Below, in pieces: positions 9,657 through 29,098 of a stretch of DNA of 30,809 bases (position 1 is its first letter; each line of letters begins with the position of its first letter). Position numbers and translations under genes: made by a program. The DNA is from a virus. The stretch covers positions 1 to 30,809 of the IMG/VR virus record IMGVR_UViG_3300036846_000588; one strand, written 5' to 3'. The notes under the pieces are model-generated. The model did no database searches. It saw only the letters and a program-made list of their open reading frames with translations, and was not told the origin of the DNA.

Positions 9657-11168
9657 TCAAACCCTCCCTGGTAAATTACGTTTGAGTGGACCTTTCTTCG
9701 ACTTGCCTTGCATTGCGCCCGCAGTGATCGCGCCGGTTCGCGCGAACGTCAAACCCACCGCGTCGGCGCCATCAGGGCTTTTGCCGTCGAGCACGCCACG
9801 GTCGCGCATGTCGTCTTTGCTTTCGACCTTGGCGTTGCCGTTCGACTGATAGACCACGGTCGGCGTCACCAGCTCCTCGACGGTCTCAGGATCGTCGTCG
9901 GGAAACTGCACCGCGTTGGTGGCGAACCAATCCCGCACGTTGAGCCAGATTTCATCGCGCAGCCGCGCCGCCTTTTGCAGAACCGACGCGCTTTCGCCGA
10001 CATTGATGCCGACCGCCGGCAAATCCAATTCGTGCAAGCGATCACAGACGCCGCCGCCGACGCCGATGACGTCGACGAAGATCGCTTCCGGTCGATCCTT
10101 TTCCGGCGTCTCGTCCCACTCTTTGAGAATGACACCGCACAGCTTCATGGTGTTGTCGAACTGCCAACGCTTGACTTTTTCGAGGATTTTGGGGCCTCTG
10201 CGTTTCGCGAGAGAGGATTTGTCACGGGTAAGAGATCGAGCAACGTCGATACCCCAGTAAACGGGTTCAAACCGCGGAGGTATAATCGCTCGCCGCATTG
10301 CAGCTTCGACAAGAGATCGGGCGATAAGCGTATCGTCGTCACCTTGGGGAAACTCACCCAATACACGGACGCGAAAACGGTTTGAGGTCTCGCCATATAG
10401 CCGCTCCTCCTCGATGTAAGCCGGATCGACGCGCGAGCTGTCACGACACGGCACATGCACGCCGCGCCAGATTTTGCGAAACTTGTGGTGGGTGTTGTAG
10501 AAGAACCCGGTGGCGCGGGTCGGATTGCCGGCGAGCACGGTGATGGCACCGCGGGTCGACATCGAGCCCGCCGCCGCTTCATAGACGGTCTCGGCGACAC
10601 CGGATGCCTCATCTGCGATCAACAGCACGTTGTCGGAATGGATACCTTGCAGCGCCTCGGGGTTTTCCTTGCGGCTGGTGCGGTAGGAGCAAAAGCAGGC
10701 TTCCGGCGCGGCGCGCATGAACACGCGCTCAGCGTTGCTGTCGAACACGCCGACGAACTGCGGATGACGTTGCTCGATGCGCTTCAACCACACCCGCACC
10801 TCGGCGGCCAAGGCGTCGAATAGCTGGGGCGCCGATGGCGCCGTCACCGCGACTTTGCAGGGAAAACGCGTAAACAGAAAATGCAGAACGATGCCGGCCA
10901 GGAACATCGTCTTGCCGACGCCGTGGCCTGAGCGGATGGAAAGCCGCGTGCAGCCCTTGTCGAGCTGTTCCAGCTCATGGCGCTGCCACGGTTCGAGGTG
11001 AGCGACGCCCATCATCTCGGTAAAGAAGGCGACGCGATCAAACCGATATTTACGGATGATGTTGGTCAGGAGGACGTCGAGCGACTTAGCGTTGATCGCC
11101 GCCAACTGCGGGGGCAGTGGCGGCGGGAACGGTGTCGATGATGGATCGACGTCCCAATCAATCGTCAT
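9657..11168 (-). CDS. terL: Terminase large subunit
   Basis: A 503-aa packaging motor with both expected domains. The ATPase part has a Walker A motif SGHGVGKT at 80-87 and a Walker B VLLIADE at 181-187 (Asp186, Glu187). The coupling motif follows in 'GAITVLAGNPTRATG'. The C-terminal RNase H-like nuclease has its metal-binding acids at Asp308 (YWGIDVA), Asp366 (AIFVDVIG) and Asp466/Asp469 (SPDGADAVGL). It cuts phage concatemers and pumps DNA into the prohead through the portal. The ATG at 11168 is chosen because it overlaps the end of the upstream gene by 11 bp; the longer frame above it is a shadow. The stretch after Asp308 (SLTRDKSSLAKRRG) departs from the usual 'G.D.S.' pattern of this family, but the acids are present. 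Confidence 0.94.
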   Translation of the reverse strand: MTIDWDVDPSSTPFPPPLPPQLAAINAKSLDVLLTNIIRKYRFDRVAFFTEMMGVAHLEPWQRHELEQLDKGCTRLSIRSGHGVGKTMFLAGIVLHFLFTRFPCKVAVTAPSAPQLFDALAAEVRVWLKRIEQRHPQFVGVFDSNAERVFMRAAPEACFCSYRTSRKENPEALQGIHSDNVLLIADEASGVAETVYEAAAGSMSTRGAITVLAGNPTRATGFFYNTHHKFRKIWRGVHVPCRDSSRVDPAYIEEERLYGETSNRFRVRVLGEFPQGDDDTLIARSLVEAAMRRAIIPPRFEPVYWGIDVARSLTRDKSSLAKRRGPKILEKVKRWQFDNTMKLCGVILKEWDETPEKDRPEAIFVDVIGVGGGVCDRLHELDLPAVGINVGESASVLQKAARLRDEIWLNVRDWFATNAVQFPDDDPETVEELVTPTVVYQSNGNAKVESKDDMRDRGVLDGKSPDGADAVGLTFARTGAITAGAMQGKSKKGPLKRNLPGRV

Positions 11169-11667
11169 CGGGAAGGTCAACGCCTTCGACTTGCGCGTTG
11201 TGGGGATCGGCGGGACCGAATTCCGCGCCAGCATCATGCGCAGCATGCGCGCCCTCGTCGGCTCTCTCGGCAGTGGGGTCGAATTCGGACGCCTCATCGA
11301 CACTGAGGGGCCGCGGCGGCTTGTCGACGCCCGCGGTCGATTGGGCCGGCGCATCGGCAAACGAGCGATCAACCGTCGATTTGAGAAACGCGTGATAGAG
11401 ATTGTCGCTCCACACCGCATAGAGGCCGTTGTCGGATTTGACGACCCAATCGCCGGGGCTGATCGTCAGCTCGCCCTCGGGCGTCCTGATGTGGCCAAGA
11501 TCGTCGCTGACGCGAAGATCGCCGCTGGAAAGCGCGGCGGCGAGCCATGTTGGAAGGGGCGGCGCAGGATCGCTGAATGTGGGCCAGTGATAGGCGCAAA
11601 TCCGATCTGGGCGAACGTGTTTCTGCCCAGCATTGGGGTCGACGGCGACGGGGTTGGTGGCGGCCAT
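11158..11667 (-). CDS. Hypothetical phage protein upstream of terminase (169 aa)
   Basis: A 169-aa protein starting MAATNPVAVDPNAGQKHVRP. The central part has a small beta-domain pattern ending 'HIRTPEGELTISPGDWVVKSDNGLYAVWSDNLYHAFL' (about residues 53-90). That pattern, a Gly-Asp-Trp turn then a Tyr-x-x-x-Phe end, recurs in many small phage proteins of unknown role. The last 60 residues are acidic and look disordered. The ATG at 11667 has GAGGGG 7 nt upstream. It is not a typical small terminase: no helix-turn-helix is evident. It overlaps the large terminase by 11 bp. Confidence 0.72.
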   Translation of the reverse strand: MAATNPVAVDPNAGQKHVRPDRICAYHWPTFSDPAPPLPTWLAAALSSGDLRVSDDLGHIRTPEGELTISPGDWVVKSDNGLYAVWSDNLYHAFLKSTVDRSFADAPAQSTAGVDKPPRPLSVDEASEFDPTAERADEGAHAAHDAGAEFGPADPHNAQVEGVDLPDDD

Positions 11668-12089: not shown

Positions 12090-12582
12090 GTCAAGGTCTC
12101 CCGCACCTGCGGTGGTGCTGCGCGCATGTGGCCCCGCACGTGGGGAGGGAGGATCGCGAGACCCTTCACGGCCGAGACTTACGGTGACGAGGCGGTGAGG
12201 CCCGTCATCAGCCCATAGCTCAGGGCCTCGCTCTCCCGCGGTATGCCCGACGCCTCAGGGGCCTGAGGAGGTGGAGCATGTGTCGCAGGGGCACTATGGG
12301 CGCCAGTTGAGCAACTGTCAAAGGGGGGTGGCAGTCAAAAAAATTTTAGAAACGGAGTGGTGGAGTTGCGGGGTGTCGGCGTGGGGGTGCGCGGCTTTCC
12401 ACCGCCCGCCCCGCCCCGCGCGACGGGGGGGCCTTCGGCGAGCGCGCCGGGCGCGACGCGCGCCGGCTCAGCCGCACCGCGTGTCGCGCCCTCCGCCGCG
12501 CCCGCGGCGCGCGCCTCTCGCGGCCGCGGCGTTCGCTCGCGTCACATAATGGCCTATTATGCAACGCTGAAATAAGCTAGCA
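12090..12582. other. 493-bp non-coding spacer between the small-terminase candidate and the terminase operon
   Basis: No convincing gene on either strand. It holds a very GC-rich, CG-dense tract (about 12385-12545), hairpin-forming CCTCAG-GGGC-CTGAGG (12253-12268), the dyad CAGTT-GAGC-AACTG (12304-12317) and an A-rich patch with AAAAAAATTTTAG (near 12340). A near-palindrome, ATAATGGCCTATTAT, lies at about 12547-12561. A spacer next to terminase genes is a natural place for a packaging (pac or cos) site, but no defining feature confirms this. Confidence 0.6.
12293..12321 (-). promoter_or_regulatory. Possible promoter for the terminase-side operon
   Basis: Minus strand TTGACA (12316-12321), 17-bp spacer, CATAGT (12293-12298). 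The dyad CAGTT-GAGC-AACTG lies within the spacer. It would begin a leader of about 200 nt with a hairpin at 12253-12268 before the 59-aa gene. No TTGAG-N5-CTCAA dyad is present, unlike other promoters in the window. Confidence 0.4.
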
Positions 12583-13068
12583 TTACCAATCAATTACGTC
12601 GCCCGTACCCTGATTGTACCCCAGCGGCTTTTGTGTGATGTCCGTCACAGTTCCTTCCACCTGGGCGACAACACGCGGGTCGGGATCACGGTTCGCAGCC
12701 TGCACAGCGGTCAGATAGAGGCTTTGAATGTTGGTCACCATACCGCCAGCGTTTGCATCGTTTTGCGCCGGTTCCGGCGGCACGATTTCGCGCGCCACGC
12801 GGGCGAATTCGAGCGGTGGGTTTTGCAACACAAGGTCCGCCCAAACCTCGAAAACATCGCGCCCGCTCGCATCGCGCCGCGGCGCATCGGGATCGGTAAG
12901 CATGCGCTCCACTTGGTCCCAGATGGCGCGCATGCGATGGCGCGTCGCGCGGCTGTACTCGGCGCGCGCTTGCGGCGCCGACGCGGCGGCAGCGGCGCGC
13001 GCCGACGCGGCGTCGGGCGCGGTGCGCGCCGCGGCCACCGCGGCAGCATGGAACTTTGTAGCAGTCAT
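12583..13068 (-). CDS. Candidate small terminase subunit (161 aa)
   Basis: A 161-aa protein. The N-terminal 35 residues are almost all Ala, Arg and Ser (AAAVAAARTAPDAASARAAA), followed by a helical DNA-binding-like part (RHRMRAIWDQVERMLTDPDAPRR). The 'DVFEVWADLVLQNPPLEFARVAREIVPPE' segment and a C-terminal part naming 'NIQSLYLTAVQAAN' recall phage small terminases. Its position upstream of the large terminase, across a 493-bp spacer, also fits. No helix-turn-helix can be proven by eye; another DNA-binding role is possible. ATG at 13068 with AGGAG 9 nt upstream. The start region carries two TGTAGCAG repeats, one covering the first codon. Confidence 0.6.
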   Translation of the reverse strand: MTATKFHAAAVAAARTAPDAASARAAAAASAPQARAEYSRATRHRMRAIWDQVERMLTDPDAPRRDASGRDVFEVWADLVLQNPPLEFARVAREIVPPEPAQNDANAGGMVTNIQSLYLTAVQAANRDPDPRVVAQVEGTVTDITQKPLGYNQGTGDVIDW

Positions 13069-13354
13069 GTAGCAGTCTCCTAAATCACTGCTACATTAGT
13101 AACCCCTTGACTGGCTTTGCAAGCTTTCCGCTCGTGTAGCAGTGTAGCGGTGAAACTCACACACTTCCCTTAGAAACCTATAGGCTCCGTTCATCTACAT
13201 GAACAAATAAATACATAACATGAACATCACCTATTATGACAGACATTCATCTTATACACTTTCATAGAAATAAATGCTACACTGCTACAGACGTCGATTT
13301 CCCGTTTAGTATCAAAGCTTTGCATTGTAGCACCGATCTGTAGCACTGTAGCCC
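13057..13354. repeat. TGTAGCAG iteron array, ten copies
   Basis: The 8-mer TGTAGCAG or a close variant occurs at 13057-13064, 13068-13075, 13135-13142, 13143-13150, 13326-13333, 13339-13346 and 13347-13354. Inverted copies (CTGCTACA) lie at 13088-13095, 13275-13281 and 13282-13289. Three places have copies back to back with an 8-bp period; two sites are 11 bp apart. One further copy, TGTAGCAA, is at 22489-22496. Sites surround the promoter and start codon of the 12583-13068 gene. They may be binding sites for a replication initiator or a transcription factor. Confidence 0.8.
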
Positions 13355-13698
13355 TTTCCACCACGGTGCGGTTTTCTTGCGCCCCCCGACCGATTTCTTT
13401 TTGATTACACCTCAAAACAGCTTGACGCATTCTGCACAACCCGCGAAAAAGCCATTTCGCCGCCCATGCGTTTTTCCGCTTCCCGCCTTCCCGCCCTCCA
13501 CCCACCACGCAAAACACACCAGCGGCCTCCTAAAGCCCTTGGCGCGCCGGTGTTTCTTTTTGAGCACAGCTCCACCCCCTCGTTACATTTATTTTGAGCA
13601 TACCTCAAAGAATTAGATTGACGCCAATTCTGTTTTGAGCCACTCTCAAATCACGGTCGATCCGACCGCGACGGCAAACCAACTGAACGGGGATTACA
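13069..13698. promoter_or_regulatory. 630-bp divergent regulatory region
   Basis: Non-coding gap between the leftward small-terminase candidate and the rightward DUF932 gene. For the leftward gene, TTGCAA (13117-13122) with a 17-bp spacer to CTAATG (13094-13099) is a reasonable promoter, and an iteron covers its -10 edge. For the rightward side, dyads lie at 13401-13415 (TTGATTACACCTCAA), 13560-13574 (TTGAGCACAGCTCCA), 13594-13608 and 13635-13649. Base composition is AT-richer than the surroundings, which could also suit an origin of replication. Confidence 0.65.
13594..13649 (+). promoter_or_regulatory. Promoter of the DUF932 unit with two perfect dyads
   Basis: TTGACG (13618-13623), 17-bp spacer, CACTCT (13641-13646), with the perfect dyad TTGAGCCACTCTCAA (13635-13649) in the same register over the -10 as at other promoters. 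A second perfect dyad, TTGAGCATACCTCAA, lies 41 bp upstream (13594-13608). The predicted transcript begins at a hairpin CGGTC-N5-GACCG (13654-13668). The -10 is weak, so the start is a prediction. Confidence 0.6.
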
Positions 13699-14739
13699 AT
13701 GGCTCACATGATCGATAATTCGAATGGCCGCGACAACATCGCGTTTCTGGGCTCGCGCAATGATGTCTGGCATCGCCTGGGCACCGAAATGCAGCCCGGC
13801 CAGTCTCTTGACCAGTGGCAGAAATCGGCCGGTCTCGATTGGACCGCAATCAAGGTGCCGGCGCTGATGGATTTGTCGGGCGCCGAATTCAATCACGTTC
13901 CCGGCGGCCGCCAGCCGCGCGCAAACGACCGCTCTTTCATGGTGCGGTCGGACACCGGGATGTTGCTTGGTGACCAGTGTGTTTCCGACGTCTATCAGCC
14001 GGTTCAGCCGCGCGAGGTGCTGGAATGGTTCCAACAGTATATCGCGGTCGATGACCGTTTCGCGCTCGACGTCGCCGGCTCGCTCAAAGGCGGCAGCATC
14101 ATTTGGGCGACCGCGACATGGCGCGATGCGCTGACCGTGGCAGGTGACCAACACGTTGCCCGCGTGCTGATGTCGACCACATTCGACGCCAGCGCGGCGA
14201 CCATAAACCAGATGACCACGACGCGGGTCGTTTGCAACAATACCCTTCGCGCCGCGCATTCCGACCGCCATCATGCCGTTGTGCGGACGCGGCACAACAC
14301 CAAGTTTGACGCCGCTCGCGTCGGCGCCGAATTGGCCGAATTGGCACAATCCGTTGCCCAGTTCAAAAAGGTTGGTGACGCGATGGCACGCGTCACGATC
14401 ACCGCCGCAGAGGTGTCCGCTTTCTTCAAAGCCTGCCTCGATATTCAGCCTGAGGAAAAATTCGAGGACATCAGCACCCGCAAGCAAAACCAGTTCAAGG
14501 CGTTGTCGCAGGCTTTCAACACCACGCGGCGCGAGCGGGAGGCCAACCAAGGCGACGCTATCGATGTCTGGACCGCGTTGCAGGCTGTCACGCGGTATGT
14601 CGACCACGACCGCGTGTCGATCAATGGCGACCTCGGCGAAAAGCAATTCTTGTCCGCGACCTTTGGCTCAGGCGACACGCTGAAAGGCAAGGCGATGGAA
14701 TTGCTCATGCCGCGGATCGCGGACCTTGTGGCCGCATAA
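13699..14739 (+). CDS. DUF932 phage/plasmid-like protein
   Basis: A 346-aa protein of the DUF932 (phage/plasmid-like protein) family, widespread on phages and plasmids of proteobacteria and actinobacteria. Family features: 'PWHRLGT'-type opening (here DVWHRLGTEMQPGQS at 23-37), 'VSDVYQPVQPREVLEWF' at about 95-111, and 'RVVCNNTLRAAHSD' at about 176-189. A further segment, GKAMELLMP, lies near the C-terminus. The function is not established; anti-defence and replication-linked roles have been proposed for members. It is the sole gene of a unit that starts at an operator-covered promoter and ends in a terminator 19 bp after its stop. The ATG at 13699 follows ACGGGGATT. Confidence 0.88.
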   Translation: MAHMIDNSNGRDNIAFLGSRNDVWHRLGTEMQPGQSLDQWQKSAGLDWTAIKVPALMDLSGAEFNHVPGGRQPRANDRSFMVRSDTGMLLGDQCVSDVYQPVQPREVLEWFQQYIAVDDRFALDVAGSLKGGSIIWATATWRDALTVAGDQHVARVLMSTTFDASAATINQMTTTRVVCNNTLRAAHSDRHHAVVRTRHNTKFDAARVGAELAELAQSVAQFKKVGDAMARVTITAAEVSAFFKACLDIQPEEKFEDISTRKQNQFKALSQAFNTTRREREANQGDAIDVWTALQAVTRYVDHDRVSINGDLGEKQFLSATFGSGDTLKGKAMELLMPRIADLVAA

Positions 14740-14758: not shown

Positions 14759-14789
14759 GGGCCCGCCTTGTGCGGGCCCTTTTTATTTT
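14759..14789 (+). terminator. Intrinsic terminator after the DUF932 gene
   Basis: An 8-bp GC stem GGGCCCGC/GCGGGCCC (14759-14766 and 14772-14779) with a 5-nt loop CTTGT, followed by TTTTTATTTT (14780-14789). Confidence 0.9.
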
Positions 14790-14840
14790 GAGGCCAAATC
14801 AAAACCTATTGACCGCGGATTAGAGTTGAGCTAATCTCAA
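14788..14840 (+). promoter_or_regulatory. Promoter of the small-gene cluster with dyad operator
   Basis: TTGACC (14809-14814), 17-bp spacer, TAATCT (14832-14837). This is the clearest promoter of the window. The perfect dyad TTGAGCTAATCTCAA (14826-14840) covers the -10. A degenerate dyad (TTGAGGCCAAATCAA) lies at 14788-14802, overlapping the previous terminator's T-run. The predicted transcript starts at a hairpin CGGTC/GACCG (14845-14860), as in the unit before it. Confidence 0.78.
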
Positions 14841-14879
14841 ATCACGGTCAAACGAGACCGCAACCAAGGGGCCTGCATC

Positions 14880-16442: not shown

Positions 16443-16499
16443 GCACTGTTACAAATGACAGTGCACAAGTGCACACTGTGAGAATGCCTCAAAAGAGGT
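16443..16499 (+). promoter_or_regulatory. Inverted-repeat-rich regulatory region before 16519
   Basis: Within 57 bp there are an inverted pair CACTGT/ACAGTG (16444-16463), the overlapping GTGCAC-AA-GTGCAC (16461-16474) and a degenerate operator with the GAG-N5-CTC core (16478-16492, GTGAGAATGCCTCAA). The hairpin CCTC-AAAA-GAGG (16488-16499) follows. A clear -35/-10 pair is not visible. The arrangement matches the other units: terminator, operator, then AAGGGG before the first ATG. Confidence 0.5.
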
Positions 16500-17485: not shown

Positions 17486-17800
17486 ATGGATGACGAGCGA
17501 CGCAAACTAATCGACGAGGTGACCCGCAAGCTGACCGACGAGGGCAAGCTTATCGAAGTCGGCTGGCAGTCCTTCCACTTGATGGCACTGTCGAACGCGT
17601 CGGAACACCAACTCCATGATATGCGGATTGCGTTCTTTACCGGAGCGCAACACTTGTGGGGGGCGATGATGTCCATTCTCAGCCCCGGTGACGAGGCGAC
17701 CGAGGGCGACGTGAGCCGGCTGGATTTGATCGATAAAGAGCTGACGGAATTTATTATCGAGTTCAAACAATCCACACTAACCAAGGGGCCTATGCAATGA
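17486..17800 (+). CDS. Hypothetical phage protein (104 aa)
   Basis: A 104-aa helical protein with a segment (WQSFHLMALSNASEHQLHDMRIAFFTGAQHLWGAMMSIL, about 27-65) that recurs in proteins of Rhizobiales and other alphaproteobacterial prophages. I recall no function. The last part is acidic (GDEATEGDVSRLDLIDKELTEF). The ATG at 17486 is preferred over upstream in-frame codons because GAGGT lies about 6 nt before it. The stop overlaps the next ATG (ATGA), and AAGGGGCCTATG lies at its end for that next gene. Confidence 0.75.
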   Translation: MDDERRKLIDEVTRKLTDEGKLIEVGWQSFHLMALSNASEHQLHDMRIAFFTGAQHLWGAMMSILSPGDEATEGDVSRLDLIDKELTEFIIEFKQSTLTKGPMQ

Positions 17801-18519
17801 AAAAACAGGAGACAATCGGATTTCAGTTGAGCGCGGCAGTCTCAGTCGAGCGCATGGGCTACGTGCTCAAAGCCCTGTTCGACAATGGCTGTCCGCCGGA
17901 TAGCTTCAACCTTCAAGCTCTCGTCGGGGTGATGGGCGGCACCCGCACCAATGGTCACGCCATCAATGCAGAGAATGCAGAGACCGCACCGCAGATTGAG
18001 CACAAAAAGCGAGGGCGGCCTAAAGGCAGCACGACAAGTCGAATGCAGACTATGCGTGACGAAATCATGGTTTATATGCAAAGCCACAAACAAGCTTCGC
18101 GCCCTGAGCTGCACACTCATCTAGCTGCGGCTCAGCCCAAGTTATTTCATCGGCAAATCGTCGACACCGCGGTGCTTGAATTCGTCAAACAGGGTTTATT
18201 GAAACGCCCTTCGGTGGGTGTGCTGACAATGACGGAAGCGGGCCATCGCGCGATGGTACAAGTTGCGCCTGAGCCTGAGCCTAAGCCTGAGCCTAAGCCT
18301 GAGCCCGCACCTGAGGGCCCCGCCTTGGGGTTGGTGGGTAATTCCTTGTTCATCTATTCGCTGCTTCATGCTGAGCCAAACCGCGTCTTTTTCCTTAAAG
18401 ATGTGAGAGACGGCATGAAAGCAGCCGGCCGCGCCCCCGGCAGCGCCAAAGATACGGTTTTGAAACTCGTTCGCCGCAAATACGTTCGTCGCATCGCACC
18501 CGGTAAGTATCAACTCTAA
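17797..18519 (+). CDS. AT-hook, winged-helix-like DNA-binding protein (240 aa)
   Basis: A modular DNA-binding protein. KKRGRPKG at 70-77 is a classic AT-hook for AT-rich minor groove. Residues about 85-155 form a helical winged-helix-like region (RDEIMVYMQSHKQASRPELHTHL, LEFVKQGLLKRPSVGVLTMTEAG). A repeated Glu-Pro-Lys-Pro linker (about 158-172) follows. A second small winged-helix-like part ends at 240 (FLKDVRDGMKAAGRAPGSAKDTVLKLVRRKYVRRI). Two domains of the 'helix, hinge, basic beta wing' type would suit a regulator that bridges two sites. It lies before the XRE-type gene. It is a candidate regulator of the dyads or iterons in this window, unproven. Confidence 0.72.
   Translation: MKKQETIGFQLSAAVSVERMGYVLKALFDNGCPPDSFNLQALVGVMGGTRTNGHAINAENAETAPQIEHKKRGRPKGSTTSRMQTMRDEIMVYMQSHKQASRPELHTHLAAAQPKLFHRQIVDTAVLEFVKQGLLKRPSVGVLTMTEAGHRAMVQVAPEPEPKPEPKPEPAPEGPALGLVGNSLFIYSLLHAEPNRVFFLKDVRDGMKAAGRAPGSAKDTVLKLVRRKYVRRIAPGKYQL
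18267..18306 (+). repeat. Hexamer repeat coding a Glu/Lys-Pro linker
   Basis: GCCTGA and GCCTAA hexamers alternate about six times (18267-18306), coding the EPEPKPEPKPEP linker between the two domains of the AT-hook protein. Slippage of such repeats would change linker length without breaking the frame. Confidence 0.75.
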
Positions 18520-18533
18520 AAGGGGCCTGAGCC

Positions 18534-18887
18534 ATGACTACAACACCGAAGAAAAAGCACGTCAACGGCGGACCGGTTTTCTCATATGCGAAATATCAGT
18601 TTCGCAAAGGCGAGCAAGACCCAATCATTGACAAAATCAGAACCATTTTCAGCGAGTATGGCGAGACCGTCAATCACGTTGCGACCGATGCAGGGGTTTC
18701 CCCCGCCACGCTGTCGAACTGGTTCAACGGCAAGACCATGAAACCGCAATTCGCCACCACCGCGGCCGTGGTGCGGACGATGGGATATGACTTTGTGTTG
18801 GCGCCGATCAAGGATCGGCCGACCGTCGACGCCCATAGCGTCGGCATGATCCTCAAACGCTTCCCTAGCGTCAAACCGGAGAGCTGA
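18534..18887 (+). CDS. XRE-family HTH protein (117 aa)
   Basis: A 117-aa protein with an XRE-type helix-turn-helix at about 34-82: IDKIRTIFSEYGETVNHVATDAGVSPATLSNWFNGKT and then TAAVVRTMGYDFVLAP. The VATDAGVSPATLSNWFNG part fits recognition-helix spacing. The N-terminus is basic (TTTPKKKHVNGG). It is probably a transcription factor of the Cro/CI type, lacking any peptidase domain. AAGGGGCCTGA lies 3 nt before the ATG. The stop overlaps the next start (TGATG). Candidate second regulator of the phage. Confidence 0.78.
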   Translation: MTTTPKKKHVNGGPVFSYAKYQFRKGEQDPIIDKIRTIFSEYGETVNHVATDAGVSPATLSNWFNGKTMKPQFATTAAVVRTMGYDFVLAPIKDRPTVDAHSVGMILKRFPSVKPES

Positions 18888-19988: not shown

Positions 19989-20177
19989 ATGCCTTTGGGG
20001 CCTGGAAAATACGGTAATCTTGCCGCATCTGCCCGCGATCAAACCGATGCGGCGGCGGCTATCGTCATGATTATTGACGGTGTTGATGGCAGTGGGTTCA
20101 GTATCGTTGGACATATTTCACCACATATTTTGGTGAAAATTCTGCGCAGTATGGCGGACCAAATTGAACAATCCTAA
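19989..20177 (+). CDS. Small hypothetical phage protein (62 aa)
   Basis: Sixty-two residues starting MPLGPGKYGNLAASARDQTDA, with 'IVMIIDGVDGSGFSIVGHI' in the middle. The MPLGPGKYD opening and the central strand pattern occur widely in small proteins of alphaproteobacterial phages; function unknown. It is the last gene of the rightward cluster and its last 4 bp overlap the end of the leftward primase-helicase, so the two transcripts converge here. No terminator is visible between them. Confidence 0.75.
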   Translation: MPLGPGKYGNLAASARDQTDAAAAIVMIIDGVDGSGFSIVGHISPHILVKILRSMADQIEQS

Positions 20178-22420
20178 TTTTTCTTGCGGTCTTTCAGCAC
20201 AGCAGCCGCCAGGAATTCGCCGCTCAGCGATGTCAGTCGTAGGTCATTCGTCCACACCGTGACAGGCAGCGAGCCTCCTATTCGCGTTCGCGCTCCGATG
20301 GTGAAATAGCCGTATTTTCGCAGCGCCGTCATTACATGACCTTGGTGCATGTGATCAGCGCCCCACTCGTTGGCGTCCTGTATTTCGCCGACCGTCAACA
20401 GCACGCGACCATGAAACAAGCCGCCTTCGCCAAATTGGTCTTTGAGCCAGCGGTTTGCCGGCGACATCGCCGCATCGATCATGTCGCGTTTGGCCTGTGT
20501 CATCGGGGGGCGGGCCGCTGGATCGAATTTGGAAATGTCACGGCTCATCAGCCAACCGACGCAAACCGCATCGCCGCCGTTATCATAGTAGCTCCACAGC
20601 TCGTTGTAATAAGCGTCGGGTTGCGGGACCATCAGCGAGCGGACAACATCGAAGCGGCGATCCTCCTCGTCGAGCCCAAGGGCGTTGCCGTAATTGGTGC
20701 AGATGATCCAATTGTGAAACCGGTATCCCGCACGAAGCTTCTCATATTTCTGCTCGATTTGCGGGGCGCCCTCCTCGATGCCGATATAATTTTTGATGAT
20801 CAAATACATTTGCCCCTTTTCGAAATTGCGCATCTCGGGGATCAAAATCAATTCGTGGTCTAAAAACGCGTTGTATTTGCTCAATAGGTCTTGCGGCGTC
20901 AGCTTGACGTAATTGCCTTCGCCAAGCCCACGTAACAGCGGCAGAAAGGCGGTATCTTTACCGATGCCTTGGGCGTCCGAATACAGCACCAGCGCGTGGC
21001 CGATCTTAGAGCCTGGTTTTTGTTTGATGAACGCCATGAAATCAAAACAGCGATTGCGCGCGTCCTCGTCGGGCACCATGTTTTCCCAGTGGCGCAGCCA
21101 CAGCGTCGGCTCGACGCCTAGCACCGGATCGAGCGACGATGGGCGCCAGCCGTTGAGCATGCTGTCGCTCTTGACGAAAATTGGTGCGCCGGGTCGATAG
21201 GCGACTGTCGTCGCTTTGCGAGCCCGCTTATCGTTTTGGAAAAGCGCCGCCGCCGTCTTGCGTCCGGTCAAGCCATAGGGAACGACATGGGCATGCAGGG
21301 CGTTGAAAAAATCTTTCGATACGCCGCGGCCGGTGGTCTCCTCGTGAAACCCGCCATCGTGCGCAATCCAACCCTGCACCATGTTCTTCAACGCCAGCTC
21401 GGCGGGGTCGGCGGGGTAGCTGTCCTCAGGCACCGCCTCGTCGAAATCGTCTTGCGCCTGCGAGCCGGTGCCGCTCTTGTCGACCAGCCATTGCCAGCCG
21501 ACCAGCGTTTCGGTGATGCTGTCCCACCGCTTGCGCGTCGCTTCGTCCTCGGTCGACCGCACGCCTGGGGCCCATTCGAGCACGTCGGGATAATATTCTT
21601 CGCAGTCGGAACCCAACGCCCCCTTGATCGCGGCGAGGTGGCGAACGAATTCGTCATGCCCCAGTTCCGCCGGCCGGTACTCGGCGAGCAACGCCAACAC
21701 ATGCTGCGGCGACGGTGCGAGCTTGGAAGGGTCACCCAGCTTCGTGCGGTGGCCGCTGGTGAGGTTTCCCGACGATCCGGTCCCTTTGAGCGGCGTGATG
21801 CCAAAAACCTTTGGGATGCCTTCCATGATGACGGCTTGGACCTGTTCCGCCGTGATCACGGTTAGATTGTAGGGCCCCAGCTCGCACGGATGGGGCGAGG
21901 ACCATCGATAGGGCTCGCCGCTCTTGTGCATGCCCTCGACGCAATAGAATTGCCCAAGGCCCAACAGCTCGACCGCGTGCGGTTTGGCGCCCTCGGGATC
22001 GCCGGGCAGGCGGAACGCCAGCCGCCGCTTGCGCAGGTACGTCGAGCCGGCAGCATACATCGCCAGGACGTGCGACGAACCTTCGACGCTGCGGACCGGT
22101 GCGGGCCCCAGCTCTTTCAACAGATAGGCGGTGACGTCGCGTGCTAGCTCGGGATGATTGATGTCGTTATCGGCGCCGGGGTAATTCCGGCTCAGCATGC
22201 CGACGGTGGCGCCGTCGTGGGACGCCTGTTTGGCCTCGGCGACCGTCATCATGCGGGTCGCCAAGCTGTCGCTGATGCCGACCCACATCCCGTTTGCTTT
22301 TCGGTAGGCCGGAACCTTGCCGCGCATCGCCGGGGAGATGGTTTTACTTGGCGCGTCTGGTGGCGCGACGCTGGTCAGCTCTGTGCTCTCGTAAGTCTTC
22401 ACCCAGCCACGCCATGACAT
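20174..22420 (-). CDS. Primase-helicase (prim-pol plus DUF5906 helicase)
   Basis: A 748-aa replication protein with two parts. The N-terminal half is prim-pol-like: acids Asp84/Asp86 (YPGADNDI), the S-x-H motif near 115-117 (EGSSH) and a third acid near Glu151 (HAVELLG). The C-terminal half is an SF3/DUF5906-type ATPase. It has a Walker A QGIGKDT at 484-490, a hydrophobic-then-acid strand ILIPEM at 524-529, the Asn-containing sensor WIICTNYGNAL near 571-581, and a DRRFDVV at 587-593 acting as arginine finger. The chain combines priming and unwinding at the phage origin. ATG at 22420 after AAGGGAGG. It is the last gene of the leftward replication module, behind its own operator-bearing gap. 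Confidence 0.87.
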   Translation of the reverse strand: MSWRGWVKTYESTELTSVAPPDAPSKTISPAMRGKVPAYRKANGMWVGISDSLATRMMTVAEAKQASHDGATVGMLSRNYPGADNDINHPELARDVTAYLLKELGPAPVRSVEGSSHVLAMYAAGSTYLRKRRLAFRLPGDPEGAKPHAVELLGLGQFYCVEGMHKSGEPYRWSSPHPCELGPYNLTVITAEQVQAVIMEGIPKVFGITPLKGTGSSGNLTSGHRTKLGDPSKLAPSPQHVLALLAEYRPAELGHDEFVRHLAAIKGALGSDCEEYYPDVLEWAPGVRSTEDEATRKRWDSITETLVGWQWLVDKSGTGSQAQDDFDEAVPEDSYPADPAELALKNMVQGWIAHDGGFHEETTGRGVSKDFFNALHAHVVPYGLTGRKTAAALFQNDKRARKATTVAYRPGAPIFVKSDSMLNGWRPSSLDPVLGVEPTLWLRHWENMVPDEDARNRCFDFMAFIKQKPGSKIGHALVLYSDAQGIGKDTAFLPLLRGLGEGNYVKLTPQDLLSKYNAFLDHELILIPEMRNFEKGQMYLIIKNYIGIEEGAPQIEQKYEKLRAGYRFHNWIICTNYGNALGLDEEDRRFDVVRSLMVPQPDAYYNELWSYYDNGGDAVCVGWLMSRDISKFDPAARPPMTQAKRDMIDAAMSPANRWLKDQFGEGGLFHGRVLLTVGEIQDANEWGADHMHQGHVMTALRKYGYFTIGARTRIGGSLPVTVWTNDLRLTSLSGEFLAAAVLKDRKKN

Positions 22421-22585
22421 GGCGCCGCCTCCCTTCCCGTAGGGCGTTTCTTTAAAGAAGGGGCCGGATGCTGGTACGCTGTGCGGTGTGTAGCAACTCG
22501 GCCCCTTTGAGTTGTAACGGGCCCCCCAACGAACAAGTCGTGTAAAGTTGAGGGATGCTCAACCTGCGCCGTCACAAATTCACAG
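22421..22585 (-). promoter_or_regulatory. Gap before the primase gene with a perfect dyad
   Basis: 165 bp with the perfect operator TTGAGGGATGCTCAA (22548-22562), one iteron copy TGTAGCAA (22489-22496) and a small hairpin CAACTC-N9-GAGTTG (22495-22515). A promoter is likely but no clear -35 exists in register. The gap separates the polymerase stop from the primase start, which is otherwise a close leftward gene order. Confidence 0.55.
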
Positions 22586-25668: not shown

Positions 25669-26882
25669 TCGCCCTCCTCAGCCGTGCCGTCGTCGAAATC
25701 GACCTGACTGGGATGCACCTCGATGCGAGGGCTATTGGCCCGCACCAGCGTCAAGCCCGACGAGACCGCCGGGCACAGCACCTTGAACGCGTCGGTCTTG
25801 CGGTCTTTCGGCGGCAACAGTTTCTCGACCTGGGCCGGGCTGAGGAGTTTGGTTTCCTGTATTGAGCTAAGCTCAACCCCGAAATCAAAACAAAGCACCT
25901 CTATCGCCTTGGCCTCATCCTCCCATTTGCGCCGGGCCTGTTTAGCGACCAGCTTGAAGCCGGGCAGGCCCACCGTTTCGGCGACGACGTGCGCGCGAGC
26001 CCGCACCGCGGTGAGCCACGTTTCGAACACGTCGGCGGCATTGAGCACATGGGCGAGCTGGTCGGGCGTCATCGTCGCCGGGTCGGGCACAGTGCCCGCC
26101 GCCGGCAAATTCAGGGCGTCGTCGAAATCGAGCTGCGCCGCTTCCAGGGTATAGTTACGAAGCGCCTCGCAGGTGCCGGCCGCACGGCAGAATTTGCAGT
26201 GCGAGCCGGGCACCAGTGGCGCACCGGGGTTTTTGGCGACCAGTGCGGCAGCGACCAGCTCGGCGCCGACCGCCTCGATGTCGGCAACCGGCCAACGATG
26301 CCGGCGCACCGGACCGTCTTTGTGCCATGCCCGCGGCTGCACCACCACCAGCTCGATTTCTTTGATGTCGTCGTAGAGCGTCGCCGGCAACACGTTGAGC
26401 GCGCCAAGGGCGTAATAGGCGAGCTGCAAATTCGGTCGACCGTCCGGGCGCGTCACCTCGACCACCTCGCCGCGACCGAATTTGGCGTCATAGACCGAAA
26501 GCACACTGTCCCAGCCCAGCCGCACGCAATCGGCGGTGCCGAAAAAATCGGGGTGCAGGGCTTTGAGATGGAATTTGGTTTCGATTAGCAGCTTGCCACC
26601 GCGCACCTCTTTGTCTTGGCGGATCGTGTCGACATATTTTTGCGTCGCTTCGATCAGCTCCTCATCGATTTCGACGGTCTCGACGGTGCGGCCGGCATAC
26701 TCGATGGCCTCCTGATTTTCGGTGAGGCAGAGGGCGGCGACGGCGTGACCCGCCGTGCCCTCTTGCGCGTAGCTCGACGGCGCGTCGGGCATGTTTTTTT
26801 GCGCCCGCACGGAACCGGGGCAGGCGGTCCAGCGGTGCGCGCCAGACGCACCAAGCGCGGAATGGTCGACCGGGGCGTTCAT
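25662..26882 (-). CDS. DUF2800 exonuclease (PD-(D/E)XK, Cas4-like)
   Basis: A 406-aa protein of the DUF2800 family, phage nucleases of the PD-(D/E)XK superfamily. Catalytic residues: His46 (EGTAGHAVA), Asp118 (FFGTADCVR), Asp132-Ala-Lys134 (VYDAKFG) and the Gln153-x-x-Tyr156 motif. Three Cys near the end of the nuclease domain (229, 232, 238, HCKFCRAAGTC) with Cys21 (WTACPG) form the four-Cys pattern of a Cas4/AddB-type Fe-S cluster. A C-terminal extension of about 165 aa has no clear domain. It likely makes 3' single-strand tails for recombination. A perfect operator lies inside the coding region. Confidence 0.9.
   Translation of the reverse strand: MNAPVDHSALGASGAHRWTACPGSVRAQKNMPDAPSSYAQEGTAGHAVAALCLTENQEAIEYAGRTVETVEIDEELIEATQKYVDTIRQDKEVRGGKLLIETKFHLKALHPDFFGTADCVRLGWDSVLSVYDAKFGRGEVVEVTRPDGRPNLQLAYYALGALNVLPATLYDDIKEIELVVVQPRAWHKDGPVRRHRWPVADIEAVGAELVAAALVAKNPGAPLVPGSHCKFCRAAGTCEALRNYTLEAAQLDFDDALNLPAAGTVPDPATMTPDQLAHVLNAADVFETWLTAVRARAHVVAETVGLPGFKLVAKQARRKWEDEAKAIEVLCFDFGVELSSIQETKLLSPAQVEKLLPPKDRKTDAFKVLCPAVSSGLTLVRANSPRIEVHPSQVDFDDGTAEEGEW
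25862..25876 (-). promoter_or_regulatory. Intragenic perfect operator in the exonuclease gene
   Basis: The perfect dyad TTGAGCTAAGCTCAA lies in the codons for VELSSIQ of the DUF2800 gene. On the minus strand the -10 register reads TTAGCT. No good -35 lies 17 bp upstream. It could be an internal start for the downstream SSB and polymerase genes, or a block to transcription from above. Confidence 0.6.
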
Positions 26883-29072: not shown

Positions 29073-29097
29073 TCCCGACGGTTTGAGATGTCCTCAA
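29045..29097 (+). promoter_or_regulatory. Rightward immunity promoter with downstream dyad
   Basis: TTGACC (29045-29050), 17-bp spacer, TACACT (29068-29073). Transcription would start near 29080 and meet the perfect dyad TTGAGATGTCCTCAA (29083-29097) at +4 to +18. It serves the HTH gene at 29159. The -10 overlaps the start codon of the leftward regulator. Confidence 0.65.
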
Positions 29098-29098
29098 T

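Follow-up and report, generated by a model that had tools for sequence, protein, structure and literature searches.

The DNA analysed here, referred to below as the window, is a 30,809-base viral contig from IMG/VR. It carries a dense array of TGTAGCA repeats around its most AT-rich stretch, and this array is probably an iteron-type origin of theta replication. Ten of the 16 non-overlapping TGTAGC cores in the whole window lie at 13057-13354 (array coordinates are window positions), and the other six (523, 1358, 11684, 22489, 29205 and 29262) are background copies outside the array. In 1,000 dinucleotide shuffles of 13050-13400, every 6-mer reached at most four copies, compared with the ten copies of TGTAGC observed. 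TGTAGCA also forms the strongest 7-mer cluster in the window, and the exact word TGTAGCAG occurs five times among the array repeats against an expectation of 0.18. The array is therefore real and clustered far above chance, in agreement with the first-pass annotation, which had listed ten iterons here. That annotation had also taken the copy at 22489 (TGTAGCAA), in front of the primase gene, as a supporting site; because it is one of the six scattered background cores, it was given no weight and was discarded as a second primase-linked site. The elements of the array are as follows.

13057-13064, plus strand, repeat 1, TGTAGCAG, exact word, within the 161-aa ORF, in its 5' codons
13068-13075, plus strand, repeat 2, TGTAGCAG, exact word, touching the ATG of the 161-aa ORF
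13088-13095, minus strand, repeat 3, TGTAGCAG, exact word, inverted
13135-13142, plus strand, repeat 4, TGTAGCAG, exact word, left inward-facing pair
13143-13150, plus strand, repeat 5, TGTAGCGG, variant, 8 bp past repeat 4
13151-13273, no strand, AT-rich spacer between the facing tandem pairs, candidate DNA unwinding element
13274-13281, minus strand, repeat 6, TGTAGCAT, variant, right inward-facing pair
13282-13289, minus strand, repeat 7, TGTAGCAG, exact word, 8 bp from repeat 6
13326-13333, plus strand, repeat 8, TGTAGCAC, variant
13339-13346, plus strand, repeat 9, TGTAGCAC, variant
13347-13354, plus strand, repeat 10, TGTAGCCC, variant, 8 bp past repeat 9

The core of the array consists of two tandem pairs with an 8-bp step, one on the plus strand (13135/13143) and one on the minus strand (13274/13282), which face each other; on the left, three outer repeats at 13057-13095 extend over the beginning of the 161-aa ORF, and on the right three more occupy 13326-13354. 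Together with 13339/13347, these make three pairs with an exact 8-bp period, confirming that some of the direct and inverted 8-mers stand in tandem at this spacing, and the remaining neighbour spacings are 11 and 13 bp. The enclosed spacer of 123 bases has 33% GC, compared with 60% for the contig, and is the GC minimum of the contig, where the lowest-GC 100-base window starts at 13190. The earlier description of iterons in an AT-richer gap holds for this spacer and fails for the gap as a whole. The window thus displays two features of iteron origins, namely repeat clustering above chance and an adjoining AT-rich region.

The genes that matter for the interpretation are listed below.

9657-11420, minus strand, terminase large subunit TerL, start uncertain, with homology from near 11,170
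12583-13068, minus strand, 161-aa ORF preceding the terminase block, a small terminase by position only
13699-14739, plus strand, DUF932 protein, encoded by the early gene nearest the array on its right side
20174-22420, minus strand, DUF5906 primase/helicase, the candidate initiator, separated from the array by 6.8 kb

On its left side the array is followed by the 161-aa ORF, which runs leftward, TerL, the portal and the major head protein, and on its right side by the rightward DUF932 gene. It occupies a divergent late/early junction and begins 2.0 kb upstream of TerL. The repeats had been reported to surround the start codon and presumed promoter of the 161-aa ORF. The repeats do reach the start codon, with repeat 1 in the first codons and repeat 2 touching the ATG, but the promoter part of the statement is unproven because a scan for sigma-70-like promoters near the array found none. 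Minus-strand genes for replication occupy 20-29 kb and encode the DUF5906 primase, PolA, an Enc34-type ssDNA-binding protein, a DUF2800 protein and an SNF2-type helicase. The DUF5906 protein is a candidate initiator of the D5/VapE/Primase_Cterm helicase kind within the genome of the array itself; it matches a primase in the PDB (6k9c/6k9e) weakly and shows 29% identity over 425 alignment columns to the primase of phage L134, itself followed by a TGTAGCA array at its 3' end. AlphaFold models of the window primase reached a pLDDT of 31 in two runs and were set aside. Cumulative GC skew was inconsistent and uninformative on the origin, its extremes tracking gene direction, and it was dropped as evidence. 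A palindrome-rich, very GC-rich segment at 12400-12545, which separates the 161-aa ORF from the terminase-side ORFs, adjoins a local change in GC skew.

To place the array in a wider context, viral contigs were scanned for three close TGTAGC copies, which gave 27 loci, and twice for facing pairs, which gave 19 further loci, for about 40 other loci overall. Most of these loci, with GC contents of 35-70%, contain between 4 and 13 sites, as a rule on both strands and surrounding AT-rich DNA; three (L126, L128 and L144) have only three sites and lack this mixed-orientation, AT-rich architecture. Same-strand spacing in 14 representative arrays peaked at 8 bp (31 of 61), and the GC minimum fell in or beside the array in about a dozen surveyed loci. 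A search with the reversed motif, the single control word used, returned five matches, three in coding sequence and two in simple tandem runs, none of them built like the TGTAGCA arrays. The recurrence of TGTAGCA is partly selected, because the motif itself was the search query, whereas gene position was not. In eight phage groups the array stands at the 3' end of a primase or helicase gene, with the nearest site at most 140 bp away.

L127, array adjoining a DUF3987 gene
L134, array adjoining a DUF5906 gene
L135 and Streptococcus phage Javan150, array adjoining a VapE gene
L138, array adjoining a Prim-Pol+DUF3987 gene
L149/L150, array adjoining a VapE gene
L271 group, array adjoining a DnaG-type gene
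L288, array adjoining a Prim-Pol+DUF5906 gene
L147, array adjoining an AAA_25 gene

The eight groups are not fully independent, because some of the initiators are distantly related. In L280 the array lies 309 bp upstream of a VapE gene. A second placement, beside the terminase, is seen in the window, in L281 (terS of phrog_57) and in a set of marine phages. The marine phages (L129-L131, L133, L136, L140-L143, L146, L148, L151 and L152) have in common a TGTAGCA array, conserved among them, that immediately precedes a Terminase_2 terS. No adjacent primase was found in L281 or the marine records, and a search there for the primase families phrog_1156 and phrog_3022 found neither, although these records may be incomplete. 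A phmmer comparison (1e-4) revealed no protein family common to all the array phages compared; a C-terminal DNA-binding domain common to all initiators was likewise rejected, the similarity being confined within families such as window plus L134. BLAST with synthetic array DNA recovered one phage and no plasmid, and a literature search on tandem TGTAGC words found no paper in the collection searched. In the large phage contig L289 (172 kb), TGTAGCA arrays face each other as pairs at three separate places, near 40.0, 91.5 and 171.0 kb, possibly marking several origins.

The organization of the window array resembles that of known replicons. In iteron plasmid origins, which combine a Rep protein, iterons and an AT-rich unwinding element, the repeats border the AT-rich region as they do here. 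Classical plasmid iterons are longer direct repeats, while the window units are 7-8 bp and occur in both orientations, and the window proteins scanned included none recognisable as a RepA-type initiator. The origins of SaPI and SCCmec (Cch2) elements pair clustered short direct repeats with a phage-type primase/helicase of the D5/VapE kind, as in the window. The Rep helicases of SaPI and SCC elements bind, through their C-terminal domain, short iterons just downstream of their own gene (PMC7581432), and the eight TGTAGCA phage groups match this placement directly downstream of the initiator gene. The window departs from it, with its array 6.8 kb from the primase 3' end and beside TerL; the words also differ (AAGTG for Cch2, TGTAGCA here), and C-terminal binding by the initiator is a feature of the SaPI/SCC systems. 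In the Chromobacterium phage-like plasmid pChV1, TGTAGCAAGTTGCTACA inverted repeats flank parA/parB (PMC5871888); these are two distant palindromes rather than an array, more like a partition site and unlike the window.

The array is the most likely start of DNA copying because it flanks AT-rich DNA and because the same layout stands beside DNA-copying genes in otherwise different phages. For the initiator, its binding to the iterons, the melting and the origin activity itself, we infer the following course. A phage initiator, most likely the DUF5906 primase/helicase (20174-22420) or a partner, would bind the TGTAGCA iterons; the 8-bp tandem pairs that face each other across 13151-13273 would load helicase and melt this AT-rich segment; and priming would start there. 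Counting against an origin are the distance of the window array from its own primase, together with its contact with a terminase-side ORF, the lack of a protein family common to the array phages compared, the missing exact motif upstream of TerL in the closest relatives, the uninformative GC skew, and the many similar repeats that bacterial chromosomes carry away from replication genes. The best reading is that the window origin sits at the late/early junction and not at the primase end. The first-pass annotation had offered either a replication origin or a regulator-binding array; the array architecture and the eight groups strengthen the former indirectly, without deciding between the two.

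Among close relatives the junction is retained while the word changes. L006 and L007, the closest relatives by TerL (70% identity), do not conserve the exact word, as TGTAGC is absent upstream of their TerL. Ten copies of TGCATGG are found there instead, some of them in tandem at exactly 8 bp. They surround the GC minimum of these relatives (23%), upstream of RuvC/TerL and 1.6 kb from TerL, and resemble the window array in position and architecture but not in word. Conservation in relatives, which the first-pass annotation had proposed as a check, thus gives a split answer, applying to position and architecture and not to the sequence of the repeat. MW202496 (L290) has GTAACAG and CCACGT clusters between its early genes and RuvC/TerL, with the GC minimum beside GTAACAG, and in phiM5 the gap ahead of the terminal repeat holds a weaker ATTGCGC cluster, with the GC minimum elsewhere; both arrays are placed like that of the window and differ in word. 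At 31668-31755 of MW202496, CCACGT/ACGTGG occurs eight times, mostly as a GACGTG tandem run, directly before the RuvC gene. The records of L006/L007, MW202496 and phiM5 do not describe these arrays as origins, and more distant TerL relatives mostly lack a strong array. Judged from these sequences, the pattern would fit a word and its binding protein changing together.

Since the array adjoins the terminase, packaging and operator roles both remain candidates. A small phage DNA-binding protein might bind the TGTAGCA sites cooperatively and control the divergent terminase-side ORF and DUF932 early operon, a role that we consider possible but doubtful. It retains weight because the array overlaps the 161-aa ORF start (repeats 1 and 2) at the divergent late/early junction; the 8-bp step would suit cooperative binding of the type that ribbon-helix-helix proteins can achieve, regulator-like genes are present at 18534-18887 and 17797-18519, and in the unrelated phage L121 a cluster of TAGTAGC occupies the gap on the left side of the DUF932 gene. 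However, the array region has no sigma-70-like promoter, ten sites around a GC-minimum spacer exceed a usual operator, and the eight primase/helicase-end arrays are poorly explained by such a role. A separate family of TTTGAG-N5-CTCAAA dyads, moreover, already resembles an operator set and is probably the operator family of the phage repressor. Within three mismatches 21 such dyads occur in the window against nine expected, several in intergenic gaps, including those at 13400-13416, 13593-13609, 13634-13650, 14787-14803, 14825-14841, 16477-16493, 22547-22563, 25861-25877 and 29082-29098. A packaging start, at which a small terminase would bind the array and TerL cut nearby, is improbable. The array does lie upstream of the terminase block in the window and directly upstream of terS in the marine phages and L281, and phiM5, a TerL relative, has an annotated terminal repeat immediately upstream of terL. 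Yet TerL of L127 is 16.8 kb from an array that stands beside the primase, so that the array there is not a terminase feature, and the other primase/helicase-end groups argue in the same direction. The 161-aa ORF, moreover, gave no match in homologue and family searches and has no recognisable small-terminase homology. Nor would a pac site be expected to contain an AT-rich spacer, which also counts against packaging.

We regard it as very improbable that the array is a REP- or MITE-like bacterial chromosome repeat that landed in the phage without phage function. Such repeats do exist: about 75 copies of TGTAGCACTGTAGC were counted in each of two genomes, a Bacteroidales MAG and Clostridiaceae BRH_c20a (the genomes of L195 and L154), where a control word gave 0, and the Bacteroidales copies flank assorted housekeeping genes. 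The bacterial genome contigs recovered (L153-L270, mostly Bacteroidales) carry dispersed chromosomal elements; in those of Bacteroidales, triplets of TGTAGCAC face outward from a core of roughly 70-100 bp that is AT-rich and often palindromic, and these elements were rejected as primase-linked origins in view of their neighbours. The window array, by contrast, is irregular and not a compact inverted-repeat unit, the word at the equivalent position in its close relatives is another one, and the primase/helicase-end placement in eight phage groups is unlike random insertion.

Collectively, the window array is best read as a replication origin, and the unusual part is that one 7-mer is common to unrelated initiators. 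TGTAGCA arrays could represent a recurrent phage origin box across VapE, DUF5906, DUF3987, DnaG-type and AAA_25 initiators and across hosts. A shared factor that binds origins, perhaps encoded by the host, would then be implied, and it would act on the dispersed chromosomal TGTAGCA elements as well; we put this forward tentatively, as an unlikely generalization. Few metagenomic phages have a known replication origin, and the array provides a searchable signature for such origins, namely iterons of 7-8 bp that face each other on either side of a GC minimum and in many cases adjoin the 3' end of a primase or helicase gene. If one word does serve unrelated initiators, it would constitute a common origin code worth explaining.
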